A stretch of 47,497 bases of DNA from a virus: positions 1-47,497 of the IMG/VR virus record IMGVR_UViG_3300022707_001381; one strand, given 5' to 3'. The translations under genes and the position numbers were made by a program. Every line of letters begins with the position of its first letter. Position 1 is the first letter of the stretch. A model generated the notes under the pieces. It had not been told where the DNA came from. It made no database searches and saw only the letters and a list, made by a program, of their open reading frames with translations. Positions 1,506-44,394 of the stretch are shown in pieces.

Positions 1506-2227
1506 GAGTTAGCCTCGAATACTGCTTGTGAAAATCCTCGCAGTGTGGCGCTTCTTATGTTTTTAGTTCTCAATGATTTTCCGCCGCATTTTTTCCAGCC
1601 TGGGTTATCCTTAAGTAATGGTTCGATTCTCTTTTTAACTGGTTCCTTGAACCCCCCTCCGGTCCATATGCAAGTGTTTTTATTGTACCTATCCTGACCC
1701 GGGTAAATATTACTATACAAAGGGTGTTCGTCATTTTTAGGGAGATAGCCGGCATAATCACAAGGATTAAATTTAAAATCTGGCTTTCTATAAATCGTGC
1801 TTATTACACCCACAGGGTTTTCCCATCCATACGCGCAATTAAAATCATCGCCAACAAGTTTAACTAAATAAACTAAAGACATGGCATCTTGTTGGAAGTG
1901 AGGGTTAATCAACCTTTTTTTACTGAAGTGTTTAGCGCCTGCAACAGTTAAATCTGTACAGTCTGGAAAGCCAAAAACAAATTCAGCTTCACTACCAACT
2001 ATTGTTTTGATTTTTTCTATATCGACCCTAGAAGGATATTTGCAAAAACCAACAGAATTTGAATAGCTTTTAACAAACCACATACCGACATTTAAAATAT
2101 TCTCATGGTCTGACTTGGTAACTCCTTCCGGGTGTTGACCATCAAAACAATAACAAAGATAACCAGCATCAGCCCAAGGTTTAGCCATTATCCCAGTGTA
2201 ATCAAATAAAAATATTGCTTTCTTCAT
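1502..2227 (-). CDS. Dcm-like DNA cytosine methyltransferase homologue
   Basis: 241 residues. It resembles the compact phage proteins annotated as DNA cytosine methyltransferases: an N-terminal FDYTGIMAKPWADAGY segment (SAM site in the family), FPDCTDLTVAG where the catalytic Pro-Cys loop lies, ENPVGVISTIYRKPD, and a C-terminal RSATLRGFSQAVFEAN. The usual PPC/GFPCQ motif is altered to FPDCTDL, with Asp between Pro and Cys, so catalytic activity is uncertain. It overlaps both neighbours by ATGA junctions between DUF3987 and primase. A role in modifying phage DNA against host restriction is inference. Confidence 0.75.
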   Translation of the reverse strand: MKKAIFLFDYTGIMAKPWADAGYLCYCFDGQHPEGVTKSDHENILNVGMWFVKSYSNSVGFCKYPSRVDIEKIKTIVGSEAEFVFGFPDCTDLTVAGAKHFSKKRLINPHFQQDAMSLVYLVKLVGDDFNCAYGWENPVGVISTIYRKPDFKFNPCDYAGYLPKNDEHPLYSNIYPGQDRYNKNTCIWTGGGFKEPVKKRIEPLLKDNPGWKKCGGKSLRTKNIRSATLRGFSQAVFEANS

Positions 2228-3678
2228 ATCAACACCCCCAATTTAGGATTAATCGTTATATCATTGCCAATACAGACACACAAATTCAACTTCTCACAAG
2301 CTGGCAATACATTCTCGCGCAAGTAACCTGACAACTTGGCACGCCCTTTAAATATAGGTTTATGCTTCACCAGGTCACGAATAGCTGTAACCGAAACTTG
2401 ATTTTTATTCTTACTTAGGAACTTTTTAAACTGCTTAACCATTTCCTCAATTTCTGATTTGTCGCCGATAAAACCTTGGCTATCAGCAGTGGTTATATAC
2501 ATTTTTATCAACTGTTTGTATATTTTAATTGCCCATTTTACAGAGCTTTCTTCAACAACTAAAGGTGTTAATTTACCCCAGTTTTCAATGACATGAAGGA
2601 CACAAGATATTTTCATTACCTGCTTATCCATCTTACCAACTGCGCCACGCAACATGTTGTTTGAGTACATACCACCGTCTTTCAAATGTGGTTCAATTTT
2701 AGTCTTGTTTACCTTGATTGCATGAATAGCTTTATCAGAAAATGTGAATACAGTTTTATCGGAAAACACTAATTTATTAATCAACATGATGTATTTTTTT
2801 TGTATGGCTTTATCGCATGGAAAGAAATTCATGTGATCACGTTCGCCAAAAAGGTTATCTTCCCGGTAAAACAAAAATCGTTCACTTACACCGTTACCCC
2901 GAGAACCTGCAGCCAAAATGATTGGCAATGTTTCATCCTGGGCAATAACAGCAATCGAACCCCTGACATAACCCTCGCCTGATTTACGTGAAACACGGTT
3001 AGAGGAAAGCCAATCACCATCCCAAGATTGCAATATTATATCTGCATTGGTTACTGAATTTTCACTGTAAATATTTCCAATAACAACATTTATTGCCCCG
3101 GCTTCATCACTGATAATGTTCCAGGTATTGTTTTGCTTAAATGCCAGGTCTTCCAGCGCTTCTGGAGTGGTGTTACTCACAGCGTATTTATAAATAGGTG
3201 TTTCTTCAAGCTTTTCAATAGAATCAACCAAGTCATTAGTTAACGAGTCAATTTCTAAGTCTAGCTCAGCCCCCTTTAAGTCCTTCTTTAATACCTCAAT
3301 CGTGCTTTCAAGTTTATTACGTTTACCTTGCTGTTTCTTATTAAAATCAGTAAAGGCATTACGGACAGGGTTTACGTAAAAGCTATTAATTCCTGATTTA
3401 CCGGTAGACGGTGGCTGAGCAGTTATTATGTATAAGTTCACAGGGGAATCGTTCCCGTGATACTCATAACTAAACGATTTAGTCATAGCCGATGCAATTA
3501 CACCAAGACCATGAACAAATGCAGTATTAACCGGGAATTGTATTTGTGTCGCTATTTGCTGGGCAAACAGTGTTAACAAATCCTTCCTTTTAAAATCCAC
3601 AACCTGTATGTGCTCTTTAGGTGCGGTGTCAGAATCTTCTGGCATTATCGGTTCAGGCCATTCTTTTTGTTGTTCCAT
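2224..3678 (-). CDS. DUF3987 family P-loop replication protein
   Basis: 484 residues. A Walker A motif is at residues 87-96 (AQPPSTGKSG), followed by a charged helical region (about 110-165) and an acidic ISDEAG segment suited to Walker B. This is the DUF3987/YfjI arrangement, thought to be a replicative helicase or primase-helicase in phages and mobile elements. It starts the leftward early operon after one small gene and is followed by primase and a methyltransferase with overlapping codons. The C-terminal 80 residues look like a winged helix. Specific function is inferred from family and context. Confidence 0.8.
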   Translation of the reverse strand: MEQQKEWPEPIMPEDSDTAPKEHIQVVDFKRKDLLTLFAQQIATQIQFPVNTAFVHGLGVIASAMTKSFSYEYHGNDSPVNLYIITAQPPSTGKSGINSFYVNPVRNAFTDFNKKQQGKRNKLESTIEVLKKDLKGAELDLEIDSLTNDLVDSIEKLEETPIYKYAVSNTTPEALEDLAFKQNNTWNIISDEAGAINVVIGNIYSENSVTNADIILQSWDGDWLSSNRVSRKSGEGYVRGSIAVIAQDETLPIILAAGSRGNGVSERFLFYREDNLFGERDHMNFFPCDKAIQKKYIMLINKLVFSDKTVFTFSDKAIHAIKVNKTKIEPHLKDGGMYSNNMLRGAVGKMDKQVMKISCVLHVIENWGKLTPLVVEESSVKWAIKIYKQLIKMYITTADSQGFIGDKSEIEEMVKQFKKFLSKNKNQVSVTAIRDLVKHKPIFKGRAKLSGYLRENVLPACEKLNLCVCIGNDITINPKLGVLI

Positions 3679-7114: not shown

Positions 7115-7391
7115 AATATTAATTGGCGGTCGTGGATCAAGTAAAAGACCAGAGGTAAGGTTTAAATCTGGTGCATATGTTGATTGGAATGAATTAGATG
7201 ATGTTGGTTCTGTGGTTGGCTTGAAACCAGAATGGGCTACGCACATTTCACAAACTCGTGCTGGTGATATGGTTTGGCTTAATACCGATAACGGCAAGAC
7301 GAAATTTATAAATAGCGATAGAGTCGTTGAGCTGCCGTTGAGTAATTACTTGTTTAGAAGGAGTAAGCCAATACCGGAAAGCTGGAATTAA
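7107..7391 (+). CDS. Small protein with terminase-like P-loop at its N-terminus
   Basis: 94 residues from ATG at 7107 (AAGG nine bases upstream), inside an overlap with the small terminase; its stop shares bases with the large terminase start (TAATG). Residues 2-14 (VKILIGGRGSSKR) closely match the Walker A region of the large terminase just downstream (VKVLKGGRASSKT), but lack the Thr/Ser after the Lys. The rest (WATHISQTRAGDMVWLN...) is unrelated to terminase and looks like a small beta domain. It may be a partial duplication fused to another module; function unknown. Confidence 0.6.
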   Translation: MVKILIGGRGSSKRPEVRFKSGAYVDWNELDDVGSVVGLKPEWATHISQTRAGDMVWLNTDNGKTKFINSDRVVELPLSNYLFRRSKPIPESWN

Positions 7392-8785
7392 TGGCCTCGT
7401 TAAACCCAAATCTAAAATCATTCTGGAAAACAAAAGCTGATGTAAAAGTATTAAAAGGCGGTCGTGCAAGCTCTAAAACATGGGACTGTGCAGGATTCGC
7501 CATTTTTTTGGCGTCTAGGTATAAAGTTAAATTCCTATGCATGCGCCAATACCAAAATAAAATCAAAGAATCTGTCTATGCAATACTGAAAATTCAAATC
7601 GAACGTTTCGGACTTTCCGAAGAGTTCGAAGTTTTAGCATCTGAAATAAAGCATAGAACCACTGGTTCATCGTTTCACTTCTACGGTATACATCGTGACA
7701 TTGCTGAGATAAAAGGCTTTGAGGGTGCTGACATTGGATGGATTGAAGAGGGTGAAGGTCTAACTAAAGATCAATGGACAGTTATTGAACCAACAATACG
7801 CGCAGAGGGTGCGGAGTGCTGGATACTGTACAACCCAAGGTTAGTCAGTGATTACGTTGAGACATTCAAGCATGACCTTGATAACGGCGTCCTTGTTCGC
7901 CAAATAAACTACGATGAAAACCCATTCCTATCAAATACCATGCTTCGTAAAATAGCCAGGATGAAAGACCAGGACTATGAAGAGTACGAACACATTTATC
8001 TTGGCATACCAAAAGCCGATGATGATGATGTGGTTATTAAAAGGTCCTGGATAGAAGCCGCTATTGATGCTCATATTAAGTTAGGAATTGAACCATCAGG
8101 CAGTCATAGGATAGGATTCGACGTTGCTGATGGTGGTAAGGATTTATGCTCACAGATACATGCGCATGGGATAGTTGCCTTATGGGGTGAGCACTGGAAA
8201 GCTAAAGAGGATGAGCTAGATGAAAGTTGTGCAAGGGTTTACAATCGCGCTTTTGGTTTTAATGCTGAGATTGATTATGATTCTATTGGTGTTGGTGCTG
8301 GTTGCGGTCCATTGTTTAGAAAGCTTAATGAATCTCGTCAGCATGAAAATGGCTACATTCAGGTCAAATACAAAAAATTCATAGCCGGCGCTGGCGTTAT
8401 CGACCCTGGCGGGTATTACATTGATGCCGGAGATGAAAAGACAACCAATAAAGATTTCTTCGAAAACCTAAAGGCTCAATCATGGTGGATGGTGGCTGAT
8501 AGGTTTAGAAACACTTACAATGCGGTAATAAAAGGCACTGCGTTTGACGAATCTGAACTTATTAGTATTAGCTCTGATATGGCAAACTTAGGAAATTTGG
8601 TTACTGAGCTTTCGACGCCTAGAAGAAGATTTAGCAAATCCGGTAAAGTTATGGTTGAAAGTAAGGAAGAATTGAAGAAACGTGAAGTGGATTCCCCCAA
8701 TGATGCAGATGCATTTATTAATGCTTTCTCACCCAAAGAGAGTAACGGCGCCATGGACTTAATGTTTCAGTCTAATTTGAATTAA
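7391..8785 (+). CDS. Terminase large subunit (Sf6 gp2-like)
   Basis: 464 residues, normal for this family (Sf6 gp2 about 470). ATPase motor: Walker A-like GGRASSKT (residues 23-30) and Walker B DIGWIEEGEGL (about 114-124). RNase H-like nuclease: GFDVADGGKD (about 243) and DYDSIGVGAG (about 295) with DADAFINAF near 438 supply the acidic metal ligands. It pumps DNA into the procapsid and cuts it when full. A terminator follows at once, and the portal it must dock to is encoded far away on the other strand. Confidence 0.95.
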   Translation: MASLNPNLKSFWKTKADVKVLKGGRASSKTWDCAGFAIFLASRYKVKFLCMRQYQNKIKESVYAILKIQIERFGLSEEFEVLASEIKHRTTGSSFHFYGIHRDIAEIKGFEGADIGWIEEGEGLTKDQWTVIEPTIRAEGAECWILYNPRLVSDYVETFKHDLDNGVLVRQINYDENPFLSNTMLRKIARMKDQDYEEYEHIYLGIPKADDDDVVIKRSWIEAAIDAHIKLGIEPSGSHRIGFDVADGGKDLCSQIHAHGIVALWGEHWKAKEDELDESCARVYNRAFGFNAEIDYDSIGVGAGCGPLFRKLNESRQHENGYIQVKYKKFIAGAGVIDPGGYYIDAGDEKTTNKDFFENLKAQSWWMVADRFRNTYNAVIKGTAFDESELISISSDMANLGNLVTELSTPRRRFSKSGKVMVESKEELKKREVDSPNDADAFINAFSPKESNGAMDLMFQSNLN

Positions 8786-9042: not shown

Positions 9043-9771
9043 TTATTTATTTATAACAACCAGCATAGTTGAAATATTAGTTCCGCTCTCTTTAAATGCA
9101 CCTTGTGGTATTTCTTCAGTATATGAATCAACAGAACTTAACCATTCGCGGAATGATATTTGTTTTTTCTGACTTCCATGGACCCAGCTTTTACTCATAA
9201 TAGAAACAAGTAAGCCACCTTCATGTAAAAACTTGTACATGTGCAATACGTGATCAACATCCTGATTTTTTGTAAATGGCGGATTTGCCACTATCCTTTT
9301 ATATTTTATATGTTCTTCCGGATTAATATTAAGAAAATCTAACGGTGTTAATTCTTTTTCATATTTTCTATTTAACACTTTTATGTTTTCTGGCATTAAT
9401 TCGATCATACTAGCGTGAGCGCCAAGCTCAACAATTCCATCAACAATAGCCCCTTGTCCTGCGCTAGGCTCAAGAACTAACATATCAGAATGAATACAAG
9501 CATGATTCATTAGTAAATCAACAACACCTGAAGGAGTAGGGAAAAATTGAAACTTCTTTTTATCGTTAATTACTTCACCACCGACAAGCCTAGACTGTAC
9601 AATAGATGCATCTTCAGAGAACTCAAACCCACATTTTTTATACTTTCCACCAGCAGTAATTAAACATTTCTTTACCTGACTATAGTTATCAAACTGTTCA
9701 TCTTTAGGTAATTCCAAACGATTACCATTAACTGTCATTTTTTTTATTGAATTTATTAAATCTTCTTTCAC
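9043..9771 (-). CDS. Class I SAM-dependent DNA adenine methyltransferase
   Basis: 242 residues from a GTG at 9771 with an AAAAAGGAA site. SAM-binding motif I is VLEPSAGQGAIVDG, the acidic motif II IELMPEN follows, and the catalytic motif IV is NPPF (VANPPFTKNQDVDH). This order fits N6-adenine methyltransferases of the gamma-like class. The first 80 residues have no recognised domain. No restriction partner is visible, so protection of phage DNA is the likely purpose (inference). It is encoded against the surrounding late genes, behind a divergent class 1 promoter. Confidence 0.85.
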   Translation of the reverse strand: MKEDLINSIKKMTVNGNRLELPKDEQFDNYSQVKKCLITAGGKYKKCGFEFSEDASIVQSRLVGGEVINDKKKFQFFPTPSGVVDLLMNHACIHSDMLVLEPSAGQGAIVDGIVELGAHASMIELMPENIKVLNRKYEKELTPLDFLNINPEEHIKYKRIVANPPFTKNQDVDHVLHMYKFLHEGGLLVSIMSKSWVHGSQKKQISFREWLSSVDSYTEEIPQGAFKESGTNISTMLVVINK

Positions 9772-9800: not shown

Positions 9801-9902
9801 TTGTGTTTATTTAACAACCCCAACATTAAACACAACAAACCCAAATGTAAAGAACTATTTAGCTATTGTGTTTAAATGATTGTTGTGGTAGATTGTGTTT
9901 AG
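9801..9902. promoter_or_regulatory. Divergent class 1 promoters with four operator-like sites
   Basis: Rightward: TTGTGT (9866-9871), 17 bp, TAGATT (9889-9894). Leftward: TTTACA (complement of 9846-9851), 17 bp, TAATGT (9823-9828). The 10-bp element occurs at 9801-9810 (TTGTGTTTAT), 9826-9835, 9866-9875 and 9893-9902, covering the core of both. One regulator could control the methyltransferase and the small-gene operon together. Confidence 0.6.
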
Positions 9903-13655: not shown

Positions 13656-14708
13656 ATGATTTTTGACACAGCAATATGCCAAGGTAATGCAGCAGACCTT
13701 AGAGCTATGGCAGCTCAATATGCATACGTAAACGCTCAGCGAGATGATCCGCGTCATGCGCTACCACTTAGTATGTTTGCAAACTCAGGCACTAAACCGC
13801 TTGATTTATTCCGTGAATGGGATAATCAAACAGTTGCACAATTCAGACTTGATGAAGGTGATAATATTCTAAATCGTTTATTGCCACTATCACGATCTAC
13901 AAATATTGGGCGAACTGTTTTAGAAAATGCGCGCGCTTCTGATGCGGGTGATTTTACACAATCAATGAGTGGTGAAGAGGGATCTCGCTACGACAATGTT
14001 GATTACGATTTAAATCAAACAATTATTCCTGTAGGTCTGAATGGATATAAGCGTAATTGGCGTGAAAACCAACAGTTGAATCTTGAAGACTTTAACGATG
14101 CATCAAACCAGCAACGTGAAGCCGTTCGAACACACAGACAAGGTGTTATCGGTACATTCATGGATGGGCATAAAAACAAAGATGGTCAATTTATTGTTGA
14201 AAAGGGATCTCAGTGGCAGGGCGTTAGAGCTGACAGTCGTGTTGATCAAATTGATTTAGGTGCAGGTGGTTTAAATGTTGATTTAACATTGTCAACAACT
14301 ACAGGTACATCAATTTTTAATGCTTTCCTTGAGATGGCACGTATTAGAGCTGTTGATAATAAGGTTTCTGCAGGTGCTATTTATTTCGTATCGCCAACAA
14401 TATTTTTCAACTTGATGCGCGATTTTGCTACTGAATTTAATGGCAAGTCCATTAAAAACAAAATCATGGAAATTGAAGGCATTTTAGGTATTGAGATGAC
14501 AAGTGTGTTAATTGGAAACCAAGTGCTTTCAATTCCGTTTCAAACTACATTTATTCAACCTGTGGTTGGTATGGGAGTTAGCACAATAGCCCGTTCTCGT
14601 CCTAATTGGAACGACCCATTTGCATTCGAAGTTGTTTCAGCTATCGGTTGGAATGTTAAGACCGACTTTGGATCAGCTAACCGCGCGCTTCAGTACGCAT
14701 CAGATTAG
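13656..14708 (+). CDS. Major capsid protein (HK97-fold)
   Basis: 350 residues. Its position, length and overall pattern fit the major capsid proteins that go with DUF1073 portals and DUF2213 proteins: an extended N-arm region (DLFREWDNQTVAQFRLDEGD), a spine-helix-like segment (NQQREAVRTHRQGVIG), and a C-terminal ending FEVVSAIGWNVKTDFGSANR. It forms the icosahedral shell. No separate delta domain is obvious; the scaffold is presumably supplied by the DUF2213 protein. Confidence 0.85.
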   Translation: MIFDTAICQGNAADLRAMAAQYAYVNAQRDDPRHALPLSMFANSGTKPLDLFREWDNQTVAQFRLDEGDNILNRLLPLSRSTNIGRTVLENARASDAGDFTQSMSGEEGSRYDNVDYDLNQTIIPVGLNGYKRNWRENQQLNLEDFNDASNQQREAVRTHRQGVIGTFMDGHKNKDGQFIVEKGSQWQGVRADSRVDQIDLGAGGLNVDLTLSTTTGTSIFNAFLEMARIRAVDNKVSAGAIYFVSPTIFFNLMRDFATEFNGKSIKNKIMEIEGILGIEMTSVLIGNQVLSIPFQTTFIQPVVGMGVSTIARSRPNWNDPFAFEVVSAIGWNVKTDFGSANRALQYASD

Positions 14709-15029: not shown

Positions 15030-15058
15030 TTGCATTACGTTTAACCAGGGTTTATAAT
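15030..15058 (+). promoter_or_regulatory. Class 1 promoter before decoration/beta-helix genes
   Basis: TTGCAT (15030-15035), 17 bp spacer, TATAAT (15053-15058), with the 10-bp element TTACGTTTAA at 15035-15044 inside the spacer. This is the strongest -10 of the class and shows that the element system also reaches into the late region. Confidence 0.7.
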
Positions 15059-15128
15059 GTTTAAACTTTAAACAAGCATTACAAAGCAAAAATAAAAACC
15101 AGATACATGCTTAATTCTGGAGATAAAT

Positions 15129-18784: not shown

Positions 18785-18786
18785 AG

Positions 18787-18811
18787 AAAAAGGGGCTCAC
18801 GCCCCCTTTTT
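18787..18811 (+). terminator. Strong rho-independent terminator
   Basis: AAAAAGGGG (18787-18795) pairs with CCCCTTTTT (18803-18811). It closes the decoration block and, being symmetric, could also stop the convergent minus-strand cassette whose last stop codon lies in its loop. Confidence 0.85.
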
Positions 18812-18967
18812 GATAAGTATATCAATGTGTATTTTGGCTAGTATTGCGCCTTTTAATTTTCCCTCGTTAAAAAATCCTTTTATGTACCTACCAAAATATT
18901 GAATGTGTGTGTTCCTACTTATTGGCATGTATTTAATTGTGTATCTTTTATATTTTATGTGATCCAT
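18797..18967 (-). CDS. Small basic protein (56 aa), last gene of moron cassette
   Basis: A 56-residue frame below usual length cut-offs. ATG at 18967 shares bases with the upstream stop (TAATG), with GAAGG nearby, and its TGA lies inside the terminator loop. It is strongly basic (MDHIKYKRYTIKY ... FFNEGKLKGAILAKI). The tight overlap with the upstream gene supports it. No family recognised. Confidence 0.55.
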   Translation of the reverse strand: MDHIKYKRYTIKYMPISRNTHIQYFGRYIKGFFNEGKLKGAILAKIHIDILIKKGA

Positions 18968-19158
18968 TATTTAGCCTTCAGTTTTATTGTTTCATTGCAG
19001 GTGAATGACGTCCTCACATATTTATGTCTTTTCTTTGTTTCAGCCAACCATTTGTTTCCAGCTTTAATACAACTTGATTGACTACCCATTTCTATTGCTG
19101 TTATTGCTAAAGCCTCACCGTTGAAGGTCATGGTTAATATCAATATAAATACGTTCAT
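18967..19158 (-). CDS. Small exported protein with signal peptide
   Basis: 63 residues. The N-terminus (MNVFILILTMTFNGEALA) reads as a Sec signal peptide with an A-x-A cleavage site near residue 18, leaving about 45 basic residues with two cysteines (SSCIKAG, TSFTC) that may form a disulphide in the periplasm. TAATG overlaps on both sides. Export fits a role at the host envelope; function unknown. Confidence 0.6.
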   Translation of the reverse strand: MNVFILILTMTFNGEALAITAIEMGSQSSCIKAGNKWLAETKKRHKYVRTSFTCNETIKLKAK

Positions 19159-19934
19159 TATTTAACTACCCATTTAACGCCAGGAATGTCACCGTTAATA
19201 ATAGTTTTCAATAGCCCTTTAGGTGATAGCCCGTCAAGCATTAAGCAACTCATGGCGCTAACAGCAGTATCAATAGCTAGTTCTTTATCTGTTTTTGTTT
19301 CGATTGGTTTGTGAATAACACGACTACAACAATTTTCTATGAATGCTATTTCACCAAAAACCTTAGTTTTAAAGCACAAAATACCATCGCCAATATATGT
19401 TATTACTGCTTCGTCATGATGCACTCTATCCTTTGAATCGCTGTCTATAATTATGTTTGATATCATACCGACAACAGGGTTTTCACCAGCTTCTTTCATT
19501 TCTTTGGTGTAGATTGGTTTTTTAATTTTTAATGGTGGTGGATCTCTATTTATAAACATATCAAGCTTACGCTCACCATCAATAAGTTTTTTACCTAAAC
19601 CGTTTACACCGTTTCGCTCATTTAACCAAACTTTCTGCTCAGCCAAATAAATCTCATATAGTGCTTTTATGTTTGGTTTCCATTTTTCTAAGTAGTTATA
19701 ACCATCACCAACAGGCCACCCATGACCGTATGCATTAAGCCCATCTGATTCGCGTCCATTTTTATACGTTGCAATAACAGGCACCCAATCAGCAACAGGC
19801 TGCTCACCTGTGTTTTCTCTGTCTGCGAATGAGACTATGAATGTTTGTTCATCAAAGCAAACCCAGTTATCAGAGCTTATTGTTTTTATGCCTTTATCTT
19901 TCAACCAGTCAGTTGGCACTCTAATGTCACTCAT
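19158..19934 (-). CDS. Hypothetical soluble protein of moron cassette
   Basis: 258 residues, no signal or membrane segment. The N-terminal part (WVCFDEQTFIVSFADRENTGEQPVADWVPV and the later GWPVGDGYNYLEKWKP) resembles sequences in phage proteins of unknown function. The C-terminal 70 residues include VISCCS-like IENCCSRVIH. It overlaps its neighbours by ATGA (upstream) and TAATG (downstream), so it is co-translated with a membrane protein and an exported protein. Confidence 0.6.
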   Translation of the reverse strand: MSDIRVPTDWLKDKGIKTISSDNWVCFDEQTFIVSFADRENTGEQPVADWVPVIATYKNGRESDGLNAYGHGWPVGDGYNYLEKWKPNIKALYEIYLAEQKVWLNERNGVNGLGKKLIDGERKLDMFINRDPPPLKIKKPIYTKEMKEAGENPVVGMISNIIIDSDSKDRVHHDEAVITYIGDGILCFKTKVFGEIAFIENCCSRVIHKPIETKTDKELAIDTAVSAMSCLMLDGLSPKGLLKTIINGDIPGVKWVVK

Positions 19935-20194
19935 GATCTAACCACCAAAACAGCAATAATCATTGAAATAAATCCAAGTATTGGAAATAACACACTCTTA
20001 GCTAACTGCATATACCTGTACTTATCAGATTTCAAGTCAATAGGATTTTCTGATAAAAGCTCTTCAAGTGTTCTTTGTGATAGCACTAAATTGCCATCAT
20101 CTAACCAGTAAACTTTATTACCTGCCCCTTTTATATAAAAAAGAGTGCCAAGTTTATAATCTGCTGCTGGGTTTTGATTTGTTTGGTTATTCAT
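19931..20194 (-). CDS. Tail-anchored membrane protein, first gene of moron cassette
   Basis: 87 residues from ATG at 20194 with AAAAGGAATAATT upstream; an earlier in-frame start overlaps the promoter and is rejected. A soluble, polar N-terminal 60 residues precede one C-terminal hydrophobic helix (SVLFPILGFISMIIAVLVV), so the domain faces the cytoplasm. First of four overlapping genes that run against the late genes. Superinfection exclusion is a reasonable guess, without direct support. Confidence 0.6.
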   Translation of the reverse strand: MNNQTNQNPAADYKLGTLFYIKGAGNKVYWLDDGNLVLSQRTLEELLSENPIDLKSDKYRYMQLAKSVLFPILGFISMIIAVLVVRS

Positions 20195-20217: not shown

Positions 20218-20275
20218 CTAAACACAATACAACACTTAAACGTAACTTGCAACACCTTTTGTAAAATGCTATTAT
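20218..20275. promoter_or_regulatory. Divergent class 1 promoters sharing one -35 box
   Basis: The palindrome TTGCAA (20247-20252) serves as -35 on both strands. Rightward the -10 is TATTAT (20270-20275), 17 bp away and preceded by TG. Leftward the -10 is TATTGT (20224-20229), also 17 bp away. The 10-bp element lies at 20236-20245, inside the leftward spacer and one base from the shared -35, and again at 20218-20227. One bound protein could switch both directions. Confidence 0.65.
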
Positions 20276-20302: not shown

Positions 20303-20734
20303 ATGAAATTAGAGCAGTTTGAGGTATTACTAGAATTCCACTTGGGTTTGATTCGCGCTGAAATAAAGCCGACAACTACTATAGGTGCAAGAAAAAAACT
20401 AGTTGATGGTATTTTTTCTGCAGATAATAGCACCATAAAAAGAGAAGTTGAAAACCTCGTTAACAAATTAAATAGTAGATTTGTTTCACTGCAAGGATGG
20501 GTTAAATCAAAATCTATTAATGAGAAAATTAAATTATATAACAGTAATAACAATAGAAATCCTAGTGATGACGTGTTTTATGCTACATTTAAATGGATGG
20601 TTAATCCTGATGAGCGCGGTCTAATGTATCAAACATCAATAGAGCATGGTATTAACCCGCAATGCATGAAAGCATTAAAACCAAGAATTGAAAGGTGGGA
20701 TTCTTACGCGATCAAGTTGATTGATACACTGTAA
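20303..20734 (+). CDS. Hypothetical protein
   Basis: 143 residues, mostly helical, basic, no membrane segment or signal. First plus-strand gene after the moron cassette. The C-terminal part (FKWMVNPDERGLMYQTSIEHGINPQCMKALKPRIERWDSYA) has no recognised family. Followed by genes for membrane proteins, so a lysis or accessory role is possible. Confidence 0.55.
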   Translation: MKLEQFEVLLEFHLGLIRAEIKPTTTIGARKKLVDGIFSADNSTIKREVENLVNKLNSRFVSLQGWVKSKSINEKIKLYNSNNNRNPSDDVFYATFKWMVNPDERGLMYQTSIEHGINPQCMKALKPRIERWDSYAIKLIDTL

Positions 20735-23008: not shown

Positions 23009-23451
23009 GCACAATAGCAGATTTAGAAGTCAAACAACTTGAAGATCACTTAACTTCTGGAGGCTTCTTTGCACCTTTTACTGATATTTTAGGAAATAAT
23101 CAGCCAGCGCCAACATTCCAGTCGTTCGAATTAGATTTAACCAATGGAACGGTTGACCGTAATGAGCGAGTTATCATGATCCGAAACTCTGGAAATATAA
23201 CAGCTTCAACCCGAACATTTTTCAAAGAAAGATTTATGTTAGTTTTAGTTGTTGGCCGTGTTGGTGAAAGTGATCGCGTTATTGTCAATGGACTCGCCGA
23301 AGATATAGAAGATTATTTAGTTAAAAACTTCTCTGATGGTGCATGTATTGCCAATATTGTTAGCTCAGGTGTAAGTCCTACATTCATCACCGAAGATGGT
23401 CGCCGGGCGTTTGAAATAAATATTACTGTAATGTTTAATATTATTCGTTGA
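23005..23451 (+). CDS. Tail terminator protein
   Basis: 148 residues, ATGA overlap with gp10-like gene. Mixed alpha/beta protein with LEVKQLEDHL and central strands (FMLVLVVGRVGES), ending in a hydrophobic strand (FEINITVMFNIIR), like the small terminators that cap the tail tube. Position just before the tube protein (after the RNA block) agrees. Its stop codon overlaps the -35 of a strong promoter. Confidence 0.65.
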   Translation: MSTIADLEVKQLEDHLTSGGFFAPFTDILGNNQPAPTFQSFELDLTNGTVDRNERVIMIRNSGNITASTRTFFKERFMLVLVVGRVGESDRVIVNGLAEDIEDYLVKNFSDGACIANIVSSGVSPTFITEDGRRAFEINITVMFNIIR

Positions 23452-23476
23452 CATTGTGTTTAATGTGTTTTATATT
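23448..23476 (+). promoter_or_regulatory. Strong class 1 promoter for the non-coding RNA block
   Basis: TTGACA (23448-23453), exactly 17 bp, TATATT (23471-23476), with element TTGTGTTTAA (23454-23463) directly after the -35. The expected start is near 23483. No gene follows for over 600 bases, so it must serve the RNA described at 23483-24042. Confidence 0.75.
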
Positions 23477-23628
23477 TAAGTTGATTTTAAGTGTAACTAT
23501 ATAGTCTGTATACAAGAGTGAGTTAGTGTTTAATTCCTGCAACGCGTTAAACAGCATAATACCTACCTTGCAAGCTAGTTCACTTTTTATACAGATTATA
23601 ACGCAAGTATTTTACATTTAGATTTTAA

Positions 23629-29048: not shown

Positions 29049-29085
29049 TTAAACATAATGCTAACACATGTAAACATAATATCAA
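29049..29085 (-). promoter_or_regulatory. Class 1 promoter for the tail-module moron pair
   Basis: Minus-strand TTGATA (29080-29085) is followed by element TTATGTTTAC (29070-29079) and a weak -10 (TAGCAT at 29058-29063, 16 bp). A second element lies at 29049-29058. Weaker -10 than the other members. Confidence 0.5.
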
Positions 29086-36464: not shown

Positions 36465-36845
36465 ATGAGAGATTTAACGCAAGAAGAAATAGACGAAGCT
36501 CCTGAATGGGCATTAAATTTTAGAGTTATTGAAAATAATTTTACACCAAAAATAATAAGTTACAACTGTGGAAGCAACAAGAAAAAATCACAAGCCTATT
36601 ACCTTGATCACAAAACATGGACTCCAATATGTTTTGGGGCTACTCAGCACGAAGAATTCAAACCAATACCCCGAGAAAAGTTTGATATAAATAAGTATTA
36701 TGAGGATAGAAATAATTATGACGACCCTTATATATGTACAAAAATTGACGGGGATGATTGTTGTATTGTTGATGGTTCTTTAGGTAAAGAAGATGCAATA
36801 GCAATAGCCAAATACTTCAAACTAACACCGGAAGATTTAAAATGA
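36465..36845 (+). CDS. Hypothetical protein
   Basis: 126 residues, acidic, start with AACGTAAAG-AAAATAAT upstream. It begins DLTQEEIDEAPEWA, a form common in small phage early proteins, and ends in a helix (KEDAIAIAKYFKLTPEDLK). ATGA overlap with the next gene. Function unknown. Confidence 0.6.
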   Translation: MRDLTQEEIDEAPEWALNFRVIENNFTPKIISYNCGSNKKKSQAYYLDHKTWTPICFGATQHEEFKPIPREKFDINKYYEDRNNYDDPYICTKIDGDDCCIVDGSLGKEDAIAIAKYFKLTPEDLK

Positions 36846-37468: not shown

Positions 37469-37711
37469 ATGAAAGCAATAAAAATTGAAAATACCGATCT
37501 TATAAATAAAATAAGAACTGACTATATGATGAACCAAATTTACCGCATGGCAAGTCAAGAGGGTATTGGAGAAAAAGCTATGCTTATAAAGGCCGTTATT
37601 TGCCTACTAAATTTAAAAGAAGAAGCTTTCCAAGAAAAGGTTGATGAATTAATGAGACGTCCTAGCAATAAAATAATGGAACAATTTAACTTAACAACTA
37701 AAGATAATTAA
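37469..37711 (+). CDS. Hypothetical helical protein
   Basis: 80 residues, mostly helical (LINKIRTDYMMNQIYRMASQEG, MLIKAVICLLNL). AAGGAACAGTAAATA site. Its end overlaps by 4 bases with the convergent MuF gene. No recognised family. Confidence 0.55.
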   Translation: MKAIKIENTDLINKIRTDYMMNQIYRMASQEGIGEKAMLIKAVICLLNLKEEAFQEKVDELMRRPSNKIMEQFNLTTKDN

Positions 37712-38685
37712 CCAACCAACAAAAGCTTATCACGCCGCTTAGCCATACGGTCAAGTAAATCCTGCTGCAAAACTTCTCCAGTCTTTTTATTAACTAGGAC
37801 TGGTGATTGCGAGCAAAGGCAATTAATAGCGTTACCATTCCTAGCGTAAAACTCTCTAACCTCATCAGTGGTATATGTTCTGCCATGCCTTTTTATATGA
37901 ACTATCCTTGATGTAGGAGCCAAAGCACTAAACCAAAGCGATAGCATACCCCACTCAGAATCACCATAAACATCTTCGTTAAGTTCATCAGTCTCAACGC
38001 CACCAGCCGTTCGGTATGAATTTAATATTTCAGTTCTAGCTATTCTTTGGGCACGATTAAAGCTTACTTTAACTCGTTCAGTGATGTTTTTACTTAATTC
38101 TCGTACACCAATACCATCAATCATGCCTCTTGCTAAAGTATTGGATAAGTCAGCCCTAGTTGAGTCTGACAGCCCTTTCATAGATTCAAAGGTTCGTGCC
38201 TGAACAAGTCCGACCCGCTTTTGAAATCCCCGGCTAAAAATTATCGAATCTAATCGTATTAATCGCATGTCTCTTGATAGTTCAGGGTCAACAGCCTCAA
38301 CCGTAGCTATATTTTTAGATGACTGCAGTACGTCACTAGTACCATCTTCATAAGCCTGGGTAAGGTTGGTATTTAACCACCACCTTTGAGTAAAAAAACC
38401 ACTAGGGTTATCAAGTAATTCGTCATTTAAAAGCTCTTGAATGAACGTGTTTATGTTTTGAAATCGAGCAACATCAATTTGATATTCATATTTTATATTT
38501 GCGGATATTACACGTTTATCAAGGGTGCCAATTAATTGGCGCATACCTTTATCGATACGTAGATACCTTGCAACAAGCTTTCTTTTTGCGCCTCGGATAT
38601 TATTAAACTGTGCAGCAGGATCGGCAGCGTTACGCGGTACAATTGGATTGCCTATGTCACTTTTCCGTAATGAATTAATTTTCAT
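37708..38685 (-). CDS. MuF-like minor head protein
   Basis: 325 residues. A central helical SPP1 gp7/Mu gpF-type domain: SDSTRADLSNTLARGMIDGIGVRELS and RAQRIARTEILNSYRTAGG (about 155-225), followed by NAINCLCSQSPV near residue 290, the counterpart of the family's H-x-NC-x-C motif. Minor head proteins of this type sit inside the procapsid near the portal. It overlaps the portal gene by 11 bases, the usual order portal then MuF, but here on the opposite strand to terminase and capsid. Confidence 0.85.
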   Translation of the reverse strand: MKINSLRKSDIGNPIVPRNAADPAAQFNNIRGAKRKLVARYLRIDKGMRQLIGTLDKRVISANIKYEYQIDVARFQNINTFIQELLNDELLDNPSGFFTQRWWLNTNLTQAYEDGTSDVLQSSKNIATVEAVDPELSRDMRLIRLDSIIFSRGFQKRVGLVQARTFESMKGLSDSTRADLSNTLARGMIDGIGVRELSKNITERVKVSFNRAQRIARTEILNSYRTAGGVETDELNEDVYGDSEWGMLSLWFSALAPTSRIVHIKRHGRTYTTDEVREFYARNGNAINCLCSQSPVLVNKKTGEVLQQDLLDRMAKRRDKLLLVG

Positions 38686-40099
38686 TAAAAGGGCCGCTAC
38701 TTGGATTCAGATCATCCTCTCCAAATTCTTCTAGACTACCAAGTACTTCTATTTCACCTTCATGACCAGAAGTTTTTAGCATTAACTCATCTGAAAATAA
38801 AGGTGCTTTCCTTCCTGAGTTAAATCTTCTTTCGTTGATGTTTTCCATTTTATCAGCTAAGTCTAATTTATCACTTGAAGAATCTTCTTGTAGATCATCC
38901 CAGGTAACTTTAATTTCATCGTCAGGCTCACGAACAACGCCTATTTTGATTAAATATTTTAGGAAGCCAATAATAATAGCTGGGGTAATAAAGTTTTCAC
39001 GGCGACTAGTTGCTGTTTCATTGAATGCTGTTTCATTGCCAGTACTAGCCTGTTTATTCATTTGTACGCCTATTAACTCACTTGCTGGCGTATTTATTGA
39101 TGATGCATAAACGTTTAATGAATTGGTAAATGGTTGAGTTGGATCGGCTAATGTTGATTGTAAAGTGTGAATATCCATACCGTAAATAGTTAAGTTTGGC
39201 GAGTCGCCACGATTGAAATTATCAACATTTTCATCGTAGGTTGCTTTAAACTTCTCATCCTTCAATGCCTGAGCAACTTGATTGTCATTTACATTTGTAA
39301 TAAATCTTTGCTTTGAATTCTTCCTCAAACCAGTTTGACCACTGGCGCAAATTATTTCAAGATCCATTAAAGCATTAAATCCTGCTTCATTAGCTGGTAT
39401 GCCAAAAATGCTACCATCGTCGGCACCTTCAGCAACAGGAAATACACGACTGGGATCTAATCGTATTTGCTTATTATCAATTGGATTTCTGTCACCAAAA
39501 ACCTCTTCACGCAAGTTATAATGTGAAGGCATCCCATAATCAGCACTATTTATATCTGAATTTGTTCCAACATCGGTAACATCAACTTGTGATTCAAACT
39601 TAGGTACTAATTTTATTAATGCCTCTACGCTGTTTACTTTTGTTATTGGCTTATCAGGATCGTTTGATTCTTGCTCTTTAACTACCGGTAAAATAACTGC
39701 ATATCGGCCAACGCGCTGACGCCAATCAACACCCTTTAGCCTAGCAAATAAGAAATGTTTTTCTATTAATACTGCAACATCTTGCTCGAATGGTGTTAAC
39801 GCGCGATCACCATCTTTTTCACCATCTGTGATGATAGGGTTACTTTGCCAACACTTATCAACAATTTTATGAATACCGGCATGAGCAATACCGAATCTTG
39901 ATTGCATATTCCAGTGATCACCAAAATTTAGTAATTTTGGATAACCTGCAGAAGACCAATAATCAATATTTGTATTTGAATTATGATATGTTCCTGTTAG
40001 GTGATATCCGAACATAGAACTTCGTCTATTACCAGAAAAACCTCTTCCATCTGTATTGGCTAGTAATTTCTTCGCACGCTTTTGTTTTTTACTCGGCAT
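38675..40099 (-). CDS. Portal protein (DUF1073 family)
   Basis: 474 residues, normal for DUF1073 portals. Landmarks: FGIAHAGIHKIVDKCWQSNP near residues 69-88, RLKGVDWRQRVGRYAVILPV, IRLDPSRVFPVAEG, TPASELIGVQMNKQASTGNETAFN, and an acidic C-terminal tail. Twelve copies form the DNA channel docked by terminase. It begins a separate late unit at the end of the leftward operon, behind a class 2 promoter with overlapping hairpin. Confidence 0.9.
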   Translation of the reverse strand: MPSKKQKRAKKLLANTDGRGFSGNRRSSMFGYHLTGTYHNSNTNIDYWSSAGYPKLLNFGDHWNMQSRFGIAHAGIHKIVDKCWQSNPIITDGEKDGDRALTPFEQDVAVLIEKHFLFARLKGVDWRQRVGRYAVILPVVKEQESNDPDKPITKVNSVEALIKLVPKFESQVDVTDVGTNSDINSADYGMPSHYNLREEVFGDRNPIDNKQIRLDPSRVFPVAEGADDGSIFGIPANEAGFNALMDLEIICASGQTGLRKNSKQRFITNVNDNQVAQALKDEKFKATYDENVDNFNRGDSPNLTIYGMDIHTLQSTLADPTQPFTNSLNVYASSINTPASELIGVQMNKQASTGNETAFNETATSRRENFITPAIIIGFLKYLIKIGVVREPDDEIKVTWDDLQEDSSSDKLDLADKMENINERRFNSGRKAPLFSDELMLKTSGHEGEIEVLGSLEEFGEDDLNPSSGPFNEN

Positions 40100-40157: not shown

Positions 40158-40736
40158 TTACTGGTTATCGAATGCTTTTTTATTTCTATTAAACCTTACA
40201 TACTTGGCCTGTCCACCATTATTAAAGGGAGTCCATAAAGGGAAGCAAACAGGAAAGTTTGCACCAGATTTAACGTGCTTGTTTTGTTTTTTACACCATC
40301 TAGTAAATGGTGTTCCATCATGTTTTAAGAATTGAATTCTACCATCTGGAACATAGATGAAAGTAGCTTTTCTTTCCACCTCTTGGAACCAATCTACATC
40401 TGGGGCATGTTTTACGCACCCTAAAACAAACGCACCATAAATAGACTCTTGCCAAGCGGTTAAAGTGAATATTTTTGATTGACTGAATGGTGGATTCATC
40501 CATAGACAATTTGTTTGATCATATCCTGTATTTATTTTATGAAGTTTGTCAGCCCAATTTTTATCCAGTGCATTATCTTCTTTACTCCAAAAGCTTTTTG
40601 ATACTGCACTTTTTTCAGTAGCGCAAACATCGTGCATAATATTTACATTTACAACTGATTCTAATTGATTAATAAGCCAGCGAGGTGTCATTGAGTTGTC
40701 GGCTTCACTCTCGCCACTGTGATATGCTTTATCCAT
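40158..40736 (-). CDS. Phage N6-adenine DNA methyltransferase (Dam family)
   Basis: 192 residues. The SMTPRWLINQLESV opening, catalytic motif NPPF (CLWMNPPFSQSK), and FIYVPDGRIQF with HDGTPFTR and GANFPVCFPLW match the short phage Dam-type family (PF05869). It methylates adenine in DNA. A TATAGGAAATGTA site precedes the ATG. It is one of three methyltransferase genes in the genome and is set apart by a 246-base non-coding gap from the gene upstream. Confidence 0.85.
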   Translation of the reverse strand: MDKAYHSGESEADNSMTPRWLINQLESVVNVNIMHDVCATEKSAVSKSFWSKEDNALDKNWADKLHKINTGYDQTNCLWMNPPFSQSKIFTLTAWQESIYGAFVLGCVKHAPDVDWFQEVERKATFIYVPDGRIQFLKHDGTPFTRWCKKQNKHVKSGANFPVCFPLWTPFNNGGQAKYVRFNRNKKAFDNQ

Positions 40737-42364: not shown

Positions 42365-42406
42365 ATAATATTACGTTTAATTAGTTAATGCAAGTATTAT
42401 GTTTAA
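42365..42406 (-). promoter_or_regulatory. Class 1 promoter, ATPase/recombination unit
   Basis: Minus strand: TTGCAT (42388-42393), 17 bp, TATTAT (42365-42370). Elements: 42371-42380, abutting the -10, and 42397-42406, three bases upstream of the -35. The second overlaps the stop of the exonuclease gene. Confidence 0.75.
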
Positions 42407-44352: not shown

Positions 44353-44394
44353 AATATAGTACGTTGCGTTTAGTAAATCAAGAGTTATGTTTAA
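44353..44394 (-). promoter_or_regulatory. Class 1 promoter, double-HU/recombination unit
   Basis: Minus strand: TTGATT (44376-44381), 17 bp, TATATT (44353-44358). Elements: 44364-44373 (TTGCGTTTAG) in the spacer and 44385-44394 (TTATGTTTAA) three bases upstream of the -35. Spacing matches 42365-42406. Confidence 0.7.

Follow-up and report, generated by a model that had tools for sequence, protein, structure and literature searches.

Morons carry their own promoter and terminator, are inserted among late genes, and are absent or different in relatives. In the aca-acr operons of anti-CRISPR phages, small accessory genes are found beside a small gene encoding a probable helix-turn-helix (HTH) protein, and aca genes have served to find anti-CRISPRs. 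Bacterial bidirectional promoters described so far in two reports have the -10 element in common and close start sites (PMC12825309, PMC10268837), the latter being 7-25 bp apart in the shared -10 type (PMC10268837).

The locus described here lies in IMG/VR virus record IMGVR_UViG_3300022707_001381, of which positions 1 to 47,497 (47,497 bases) were analysed as one stretch, referred to as the window. We consider it fairly probable that four small genes on its minus strand are one allele of an insulated cargo slot, which would be regulated by a divergently encoded 143-aa protein and would belong to a clade of apparently virulent marine siphophages.

According to PHROGs, the terminase, capsid, tail tube, tape measure and tail proteins of the window are all encoded on the plus strand. 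By capsid protein, the closest named phages are Vibrio phages 1.247, 1.214, 1.013 and 1.122 (58-59% identity), which rank first among 335 matching records. Scanning of 74 window ORFs gave no hit named as integrase, excisionase or CI-type repressor, in a record that may be incomplete. As no lysogeny gene is named and the capsid is akin to those of Vibrio phages, the phage is treated as a probably virulent marine siphophage. The lack of a named integrase or repressor also makes a lysogen-protecting role of the cargo less likely, and a role in prophage maintenance was discarded on this ground. The portal and head-morphogenesis genes of the window (37708-40099) lie on the minus strand, distant from the genes for terminase (7391-8785) and capsid (13656-14708), which are on the plus strand, whereas in the Vibrio relatives they come after the terminase on the same strand. 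Three separate minus-strand window genes (1502-2227, 9043-9771 and 40158-40736) match DNA methyltransferase families in PHROGs.

The minus-strand operon and its products

The preliminary description of this locus had four overlapping minus-strand genes running against the late genes, and all four (A to D) lie where it placed them (Table 1), with overlaps of merely 4, 1 and 1 bases at junctions reading ATGA (A/B) and TAATG (B/C and C/D). The sites ahead of the starts are AAGGA for A, GGTGG for B and GAAGG for D, while C has only a weak one. This coupled chain comprises four ORFs and three links, while the deepest chain in 200 simulated 5-kb sequences (first-order Markov) had two ORFs, at 0.015 links per sequence. 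As judged from such sequence features, A-B-C-D is a real, compact, translationally coupled cargo operon.

Table 1. Features of the slot in the window, and the slot cargo of related loci (bare numbers are product lengths in aa)
Feature	Position	Strand	Remarks
Left flanking late gene, 127 aa	18401..18784	plus	Fixed slot border; homologues with 40-64% identity in relatives
Hairpin, predicted terminator	18785..18812	both sides	Would serve late gene and cargo operon; stem 18792-18805
Gene D	18797-18967	minus	56-aa basic protein
Gene C	18967-19158	minus	63 aa, probably exported, two cysteines
Gene B	19158-19934	minus	258-aa soluble two-part protein, mobile phage accessory family
Gene A	19931-20194	minus	87 aa, C-terminal hydrophobic segment, tail-anchored by prediction
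Tandem RYGTTTA boxes, candidate operator	20237-20243 and 20219-20225	minus	18 bp apart, upstream of cargo
-10-like hexamer TATTGT, predicted cargo promoter	20224..20229	minus	17 bp from common -35
Palindromic -35 hexamer TTGCAA (predicted)	20247..20252	both directions	Invariant in 7/7 slot promoters
-10-like hexamer TATTAT, 143-aa gene	20270..20275	plus	Assigned by sequence
143-aa all-helical protein, probable HTH regulator	20303-20734	plus	Divergent from cargo, promoter region in common
Right flanking gene, 171 aa	20848..21363	plus	phrog_20960, function unknown
Window slot cargo		minus	A-B-C-D
L008 slot cargo		minus	Tail-anchored analogue, then ~300-aa B relative
L010 slot cargo		minus	184, 100, 182, 61, 67 and serine resolvase; no B
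L011 slot cargo		minus	88, 58, 276 (B-like), 44, 78 (lipoprotein-like by eye)
L014 slot cargo		minus	383 (B relative), 69
L016 slot cargo		minus	290 (B relative), alone
Slots cut by contig ends		minus	L047 (B relative, 44, 86 with TM segment); L049 (72, 67); L002 (52)

The operon had also been credited with its own operator-bearing promoter and a common terminator, and operator-like boxes, promoter hexamers and a two-strand hairpin were indeed found, from which both elements are predicted. The hairpin folds on either strand (-13.9 and -18.6 kcal/mol), sits between the convergent late gene and gene D, the last codons of which fall within it, and is present at the same place, the left end, in 9/9 loci inspected (window, L002, L008, L010, L011, L014, L016, L047 and L049). 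With a predicted promoter of its own and a terminator presumably shared with the late gene, the minus-strand unit is moron-like and self-contained, and it opposes the late genes.

Among the four products, A could plausibly be tail-anchored, as it is hydrophobic near its C-terminus only (mean KD 2.73 over residues 67-85); B lacks TM segments, in agreement with a soluble protein; and D is basic, with a net charge of +9. C, for which a signal peptide had been proposed, has a hydrophobic N-terminal stretch ending in ALA, followed by two cysteines, but its n-region is devoid of the usual positive charge. C weakly matches phrog_5579 (E 2.3e-4, function unknown), which occurs in 1/17 records, namely the window, and D weakly matches phrog_33691 (E 0.0047). 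Pfam, PHROGs and PADLOC gave no functional result for A, B, C, D or the 143-aa gene. No relative was obtained by tblastn in 'phages' with A, B, C and the 143-aa gene, or by scanning viral contigs with peptide patterns of A or of B singly and genome contigs with a pattern of B only.

Slot content in related phages

Loci were collected with the tail-tube protein, the 143-aa divergent gene and the left flanking gene. Complete slots, with both flanks, are present on six contigs (window, L008, L010, L011, L014 and L016). Among the ten left-flank loci, the window included, a minus-strand gene comes next in nine and is absent in one (L053). Minus-strand genes thus recur at the same position with differing content and, as far as DNA features go, the loci show a fixed frame (late gene, hairpin, minus-strand operon, predicted divergent promoter and plus-strand 143-aa gene) around changing cargo. 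The slot of L010 has a serine resolvase gene at its terminator end (1114-1659; Pfam Resolvase, E 8.6e-36), which could help cargo exchange.

The four genes had been read in the preliminary description as one four-part, envelope-spanning system, in which an inner-membrane A, a cytoplasmic B and a periplasmic C would work with D, serving superinfection exclusion or anti-defence. This is consistent with the tight translational coupling of the genes, with the prediction of a membrane product and of an exported product among the four, and with the small membrane or lipoprotein-like genes that adjoin B relatives in L008, L011 and L047. However, the four genes are not conserved as a unit, which was a check proposed with that reading: when all locus ORFs down to a length of 40 or 45 aa were compared by blastp with the proteins of the window, neither C nor D had a relative in other slots; the only counterpart of A there is a sequence-unrelated tail-anchored analogue in L008; and B occurs without A, C and D, both in other slots (alone in L016) and in other genomic places, an independence that had been named in advance as speaking against a single system. 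Homology between A and the L008 analogue was considered and rejected, their local alignment score being matched by 58% of shuffles. Moreover, PADLOC returned no defence-related match (0/10 proteins at E up to 0.01, with A, B, C and D all lacking one), and the conserved set of membrane or exported products that would characterize superinfection exclusion was not found in these slots. As slot content differs among relatives and the B family is found elsewhere, we favour a cargo slot; a single envelope-spanning system appears improbable, and superinfection exclusion or anti-defence is a guess as to what the cargo does.

B belongs to a mosaic family, with relatives in 13/17 records examined by a 15-row profile; for nine of these 13, which contributed rows to the profile, the match is by construction, and the remaining four comprise three named phages and the L010 record. 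Relatives in other gene neighbourhoods are carried by Shewanella phages 1/4 and 3/49, Vibrio phage 1.076.O (host Shewanella) and several metagenomic phages, so that B-type genes extend to Shewanella phages and exist outside the slot, including in phages without it. The L010 record has a slot without B, yet a B-like gene is present elsewhere in that record. One locus (L046) was found when genome contigs were searched with the B alignment, and it lies in a phage-like neighbourhood of an Immundisolibacteraceae metagenome-assembled genome. The AlphaFold2 model of B (mean pLDDT 71.6) has a confident N-terminal half and an uncertain small C-terminal barrel, the best structure matches of which are SH3-like folds with Z of 4.4 or less, too weak for assigning a function; five BFVD matches, with E values up to 1e-3, are to viral proteins for which the listing names no function. 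Among the matches listed by Foldseek and VIA-align against the PDB, neither the B model nor the 143-aa model had a clear relative.

Two further observations concern B-type genes. In L002, a B-like protein is encoded in another minus-strand accessory block (1506-3240), which follows the terminase gene, so that phages of this family may harbour more than a single accessory site of this kind. A 126-aa gene of the window (36465-36845), 16 kb from B, has homologues immediately before B relatives in L031 and L032.

The changing content might also reflect a neutral build-up, at an intergenic position that tolerates insertions, of accessory genes without relation to one another; the 143-aa protein would then regulate only itself or be another accessory gene. 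Such a build-up would fit the strong turnover, the absence of known functions for nearly all the families, and the four related Vibrio phages, which have none or one plus-strand gene at this position before the head-completion gene. It would not account so readily for the retention of promoter and terminator hairpin where the cargo is not retained, for the translational coupling, or for the recurrence of B-type genes in 5/6 complete slots, the window counted and L011 included by motif only (its B-like protein is tied to the family by motif and, via L008, by phrog_3483, with no direct blastp link to window B). We regard neutral build-up as rather unlikely and proceed with the regulated cargo slot.

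The divergent gene, its promoter and a candidate operator

No other gene of the unit is as constant as the 143-aa gene, which the preliminary description overlooked. Its product is 32-43% identical to six aligned homologues, and the gene is present in 4/17 records examined, in one copy each, all four being slot-bearing. The AF2 model is all-helical and confident (pLDDT 92.5), and the segment I..AA....VN.QSVK.L.PR fits, by eye, what we take to be a helix-turn-helix pattern. KorA, on a par with unrelated folds, is among the best structure matches of the model (Z 5.6 and rmsd 2.2 over 53 residues) and aligns with the profile of the 143-aa protein in the same register as in the structure match (hhalign probability 46% over 35 columns). 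Pfam and NCBIfam gave no match to a curated KorA/TrfB family at E up to 1 for 7/7 members of the 143-aa family, and searches of Pfam, NCBIfam and PDB sequences gave no support for an HTH. A tandem duplication of one HTH was tried as an explanation of the two halves and rejected (0.2% probability on comparing their profiles). The protein is likely to bind DNA; it is probably an HTH protein, and we infer a regulatory role.

Within the intergenic DNA of the seven slot promoters, TAAACACAA and TTGCAA are invariant (7/7). TTGCAA is its own reverse complement, and a -10-like hexamer stands 16-18 bp off on both sides in all seven, an arrangement with a chance of about 3% at one random site. As the hexamer is palindromic and flanked in this way, one -35 would serve both directions; the predicted start sites, estimated from hexamer positions, are about 65 bp apart. 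The promoter pattern was found in 14 stretches of viral contigs, three of which are the known slot contigs L008, L010 and L011. The other 11 were judged to be chance occurrences: eight lie inside ORFs of unrelated viruses, two over gene starts (L026 and L030) and one between genes (L021).

RYGTTTA boxes, which form the candidate operator, are frequent between genes of the window (18 observed, 5.0 expected). As the window had supplied the motif, other records provide the independent tests, with 22 boxes in the L010 record (8.5 expected), 23 in the L016 record (7.1 expected) and six in the analysed part of the L008 record (2.3 expected). Between genes, tandem pairs with a spacing of 17-28 bp occur in 4/4 records with the 143-aa gene (5, 1, 3 and 2 pairs) and in 0/11 without it, the latter being 11 of the 13 records (of 17) that lack the gene, five of them not full length. 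When the slot's own pair is subtracted, four pairs are left in the window and one in L008. Two Vibrio phages show a mild excess of single boxes (z 2.1 and 2.7), and box pairs are found in either orientation relative to neighbouring genes. As the phages bearing the 143-aa gene are probably one clade, descent alone could explain the correlation. Boxes elsewhere between window genes, often tandem, are at 670, 9803-9902, 15037-15063, 23431-23532, 29050-29077, 42373-42405 and 44366-44393, and a phage-wide regulon is possible.

Proposed mechanism and comparison with known systems

In the cargo slot as we envisage it, the 143-aa protein would act via the tandem RYGTTTA boxes and set the timing of expression both of the cargo and of its own gene. 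As RNA polymerase can hold the common -35 in only one orientation at once, the two directions should compete, for example in such a way that an early burst of cargo expression is later limited by the regulator. More speculatively, the cargo proteins would act separately on the host in early infection, A at the membrane, B in the cytoplasm, C after export and D as a basic protein; they would be encoded together through the common slot rather than through membership of one complex. Position, small size, membrane or export features and rapid turnover make host take-over or counter-defence the most likely role, which is our best guess. No link of any cargo protein to a host target was found, PADLOC being silent. 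A wider proposal is possible, if on the doubtful side: that the 143-aa protein founds a new phage regulator family with a single copy per genome; that tandem RTTRYGTTTA is read genome-wide; and that cargo and regulator expression are mutually exclusive via the palindromic -35, any cargo in the slot coming under that timing.

If the cargo slot is real, its frame (hairpin, common -35 promoter and 143-aa gene) provides a searchable handle, and the genes that it encloses in other phages are candidate host-interaction cargo, similar to the way in which aca genes have led to anti-CRISPRs. Competition between opposed RNA polymerases would find a natural test case in the single palindromic -35.

Like morons, the slot has a predicted promoter and terminator of its own among opposite-strand genes, and relatives differ at the site; no prophage sign, by contrast, was found among the window ORFs scanned, and its cargo is under a conserved promoter that belongs to the slot. 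As in aca-acr operons, small accessory genes are paired with a small probable HTH gene, but here the regulator gene is divergent and outside the cargo operon. In the weak KorA matches given above, the 143-aa protein would have an N-terminal QF...TI..A...LVDG and helices in the same register in common with the KorA/TrfB plasmid repressors; it differs from them in its length of 143 aa, with a second helical half, and in matching none of the Pfam or NCBIfam families.

Bacterial bidirectional promoters likewise use one hexamer for two opposite transcripts, and polymerases may compete there (PMC12825309, PMC10268837). The slot, however, has the -35 rather than the -10 in common, which sets it apart from the shared -10 type; a limited literature search, not aimed at that alone, met no description of phage promoters sharing a -35. 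Fixed flanks with variable accessory cargo have been described for another system (PMC9122126). Compared with that system, the present slot is placed between the head and the neck genes of a phage that appears to be virulent, is without known defence genes according to PADLOC, and has a conserved divergent gene and promoter.
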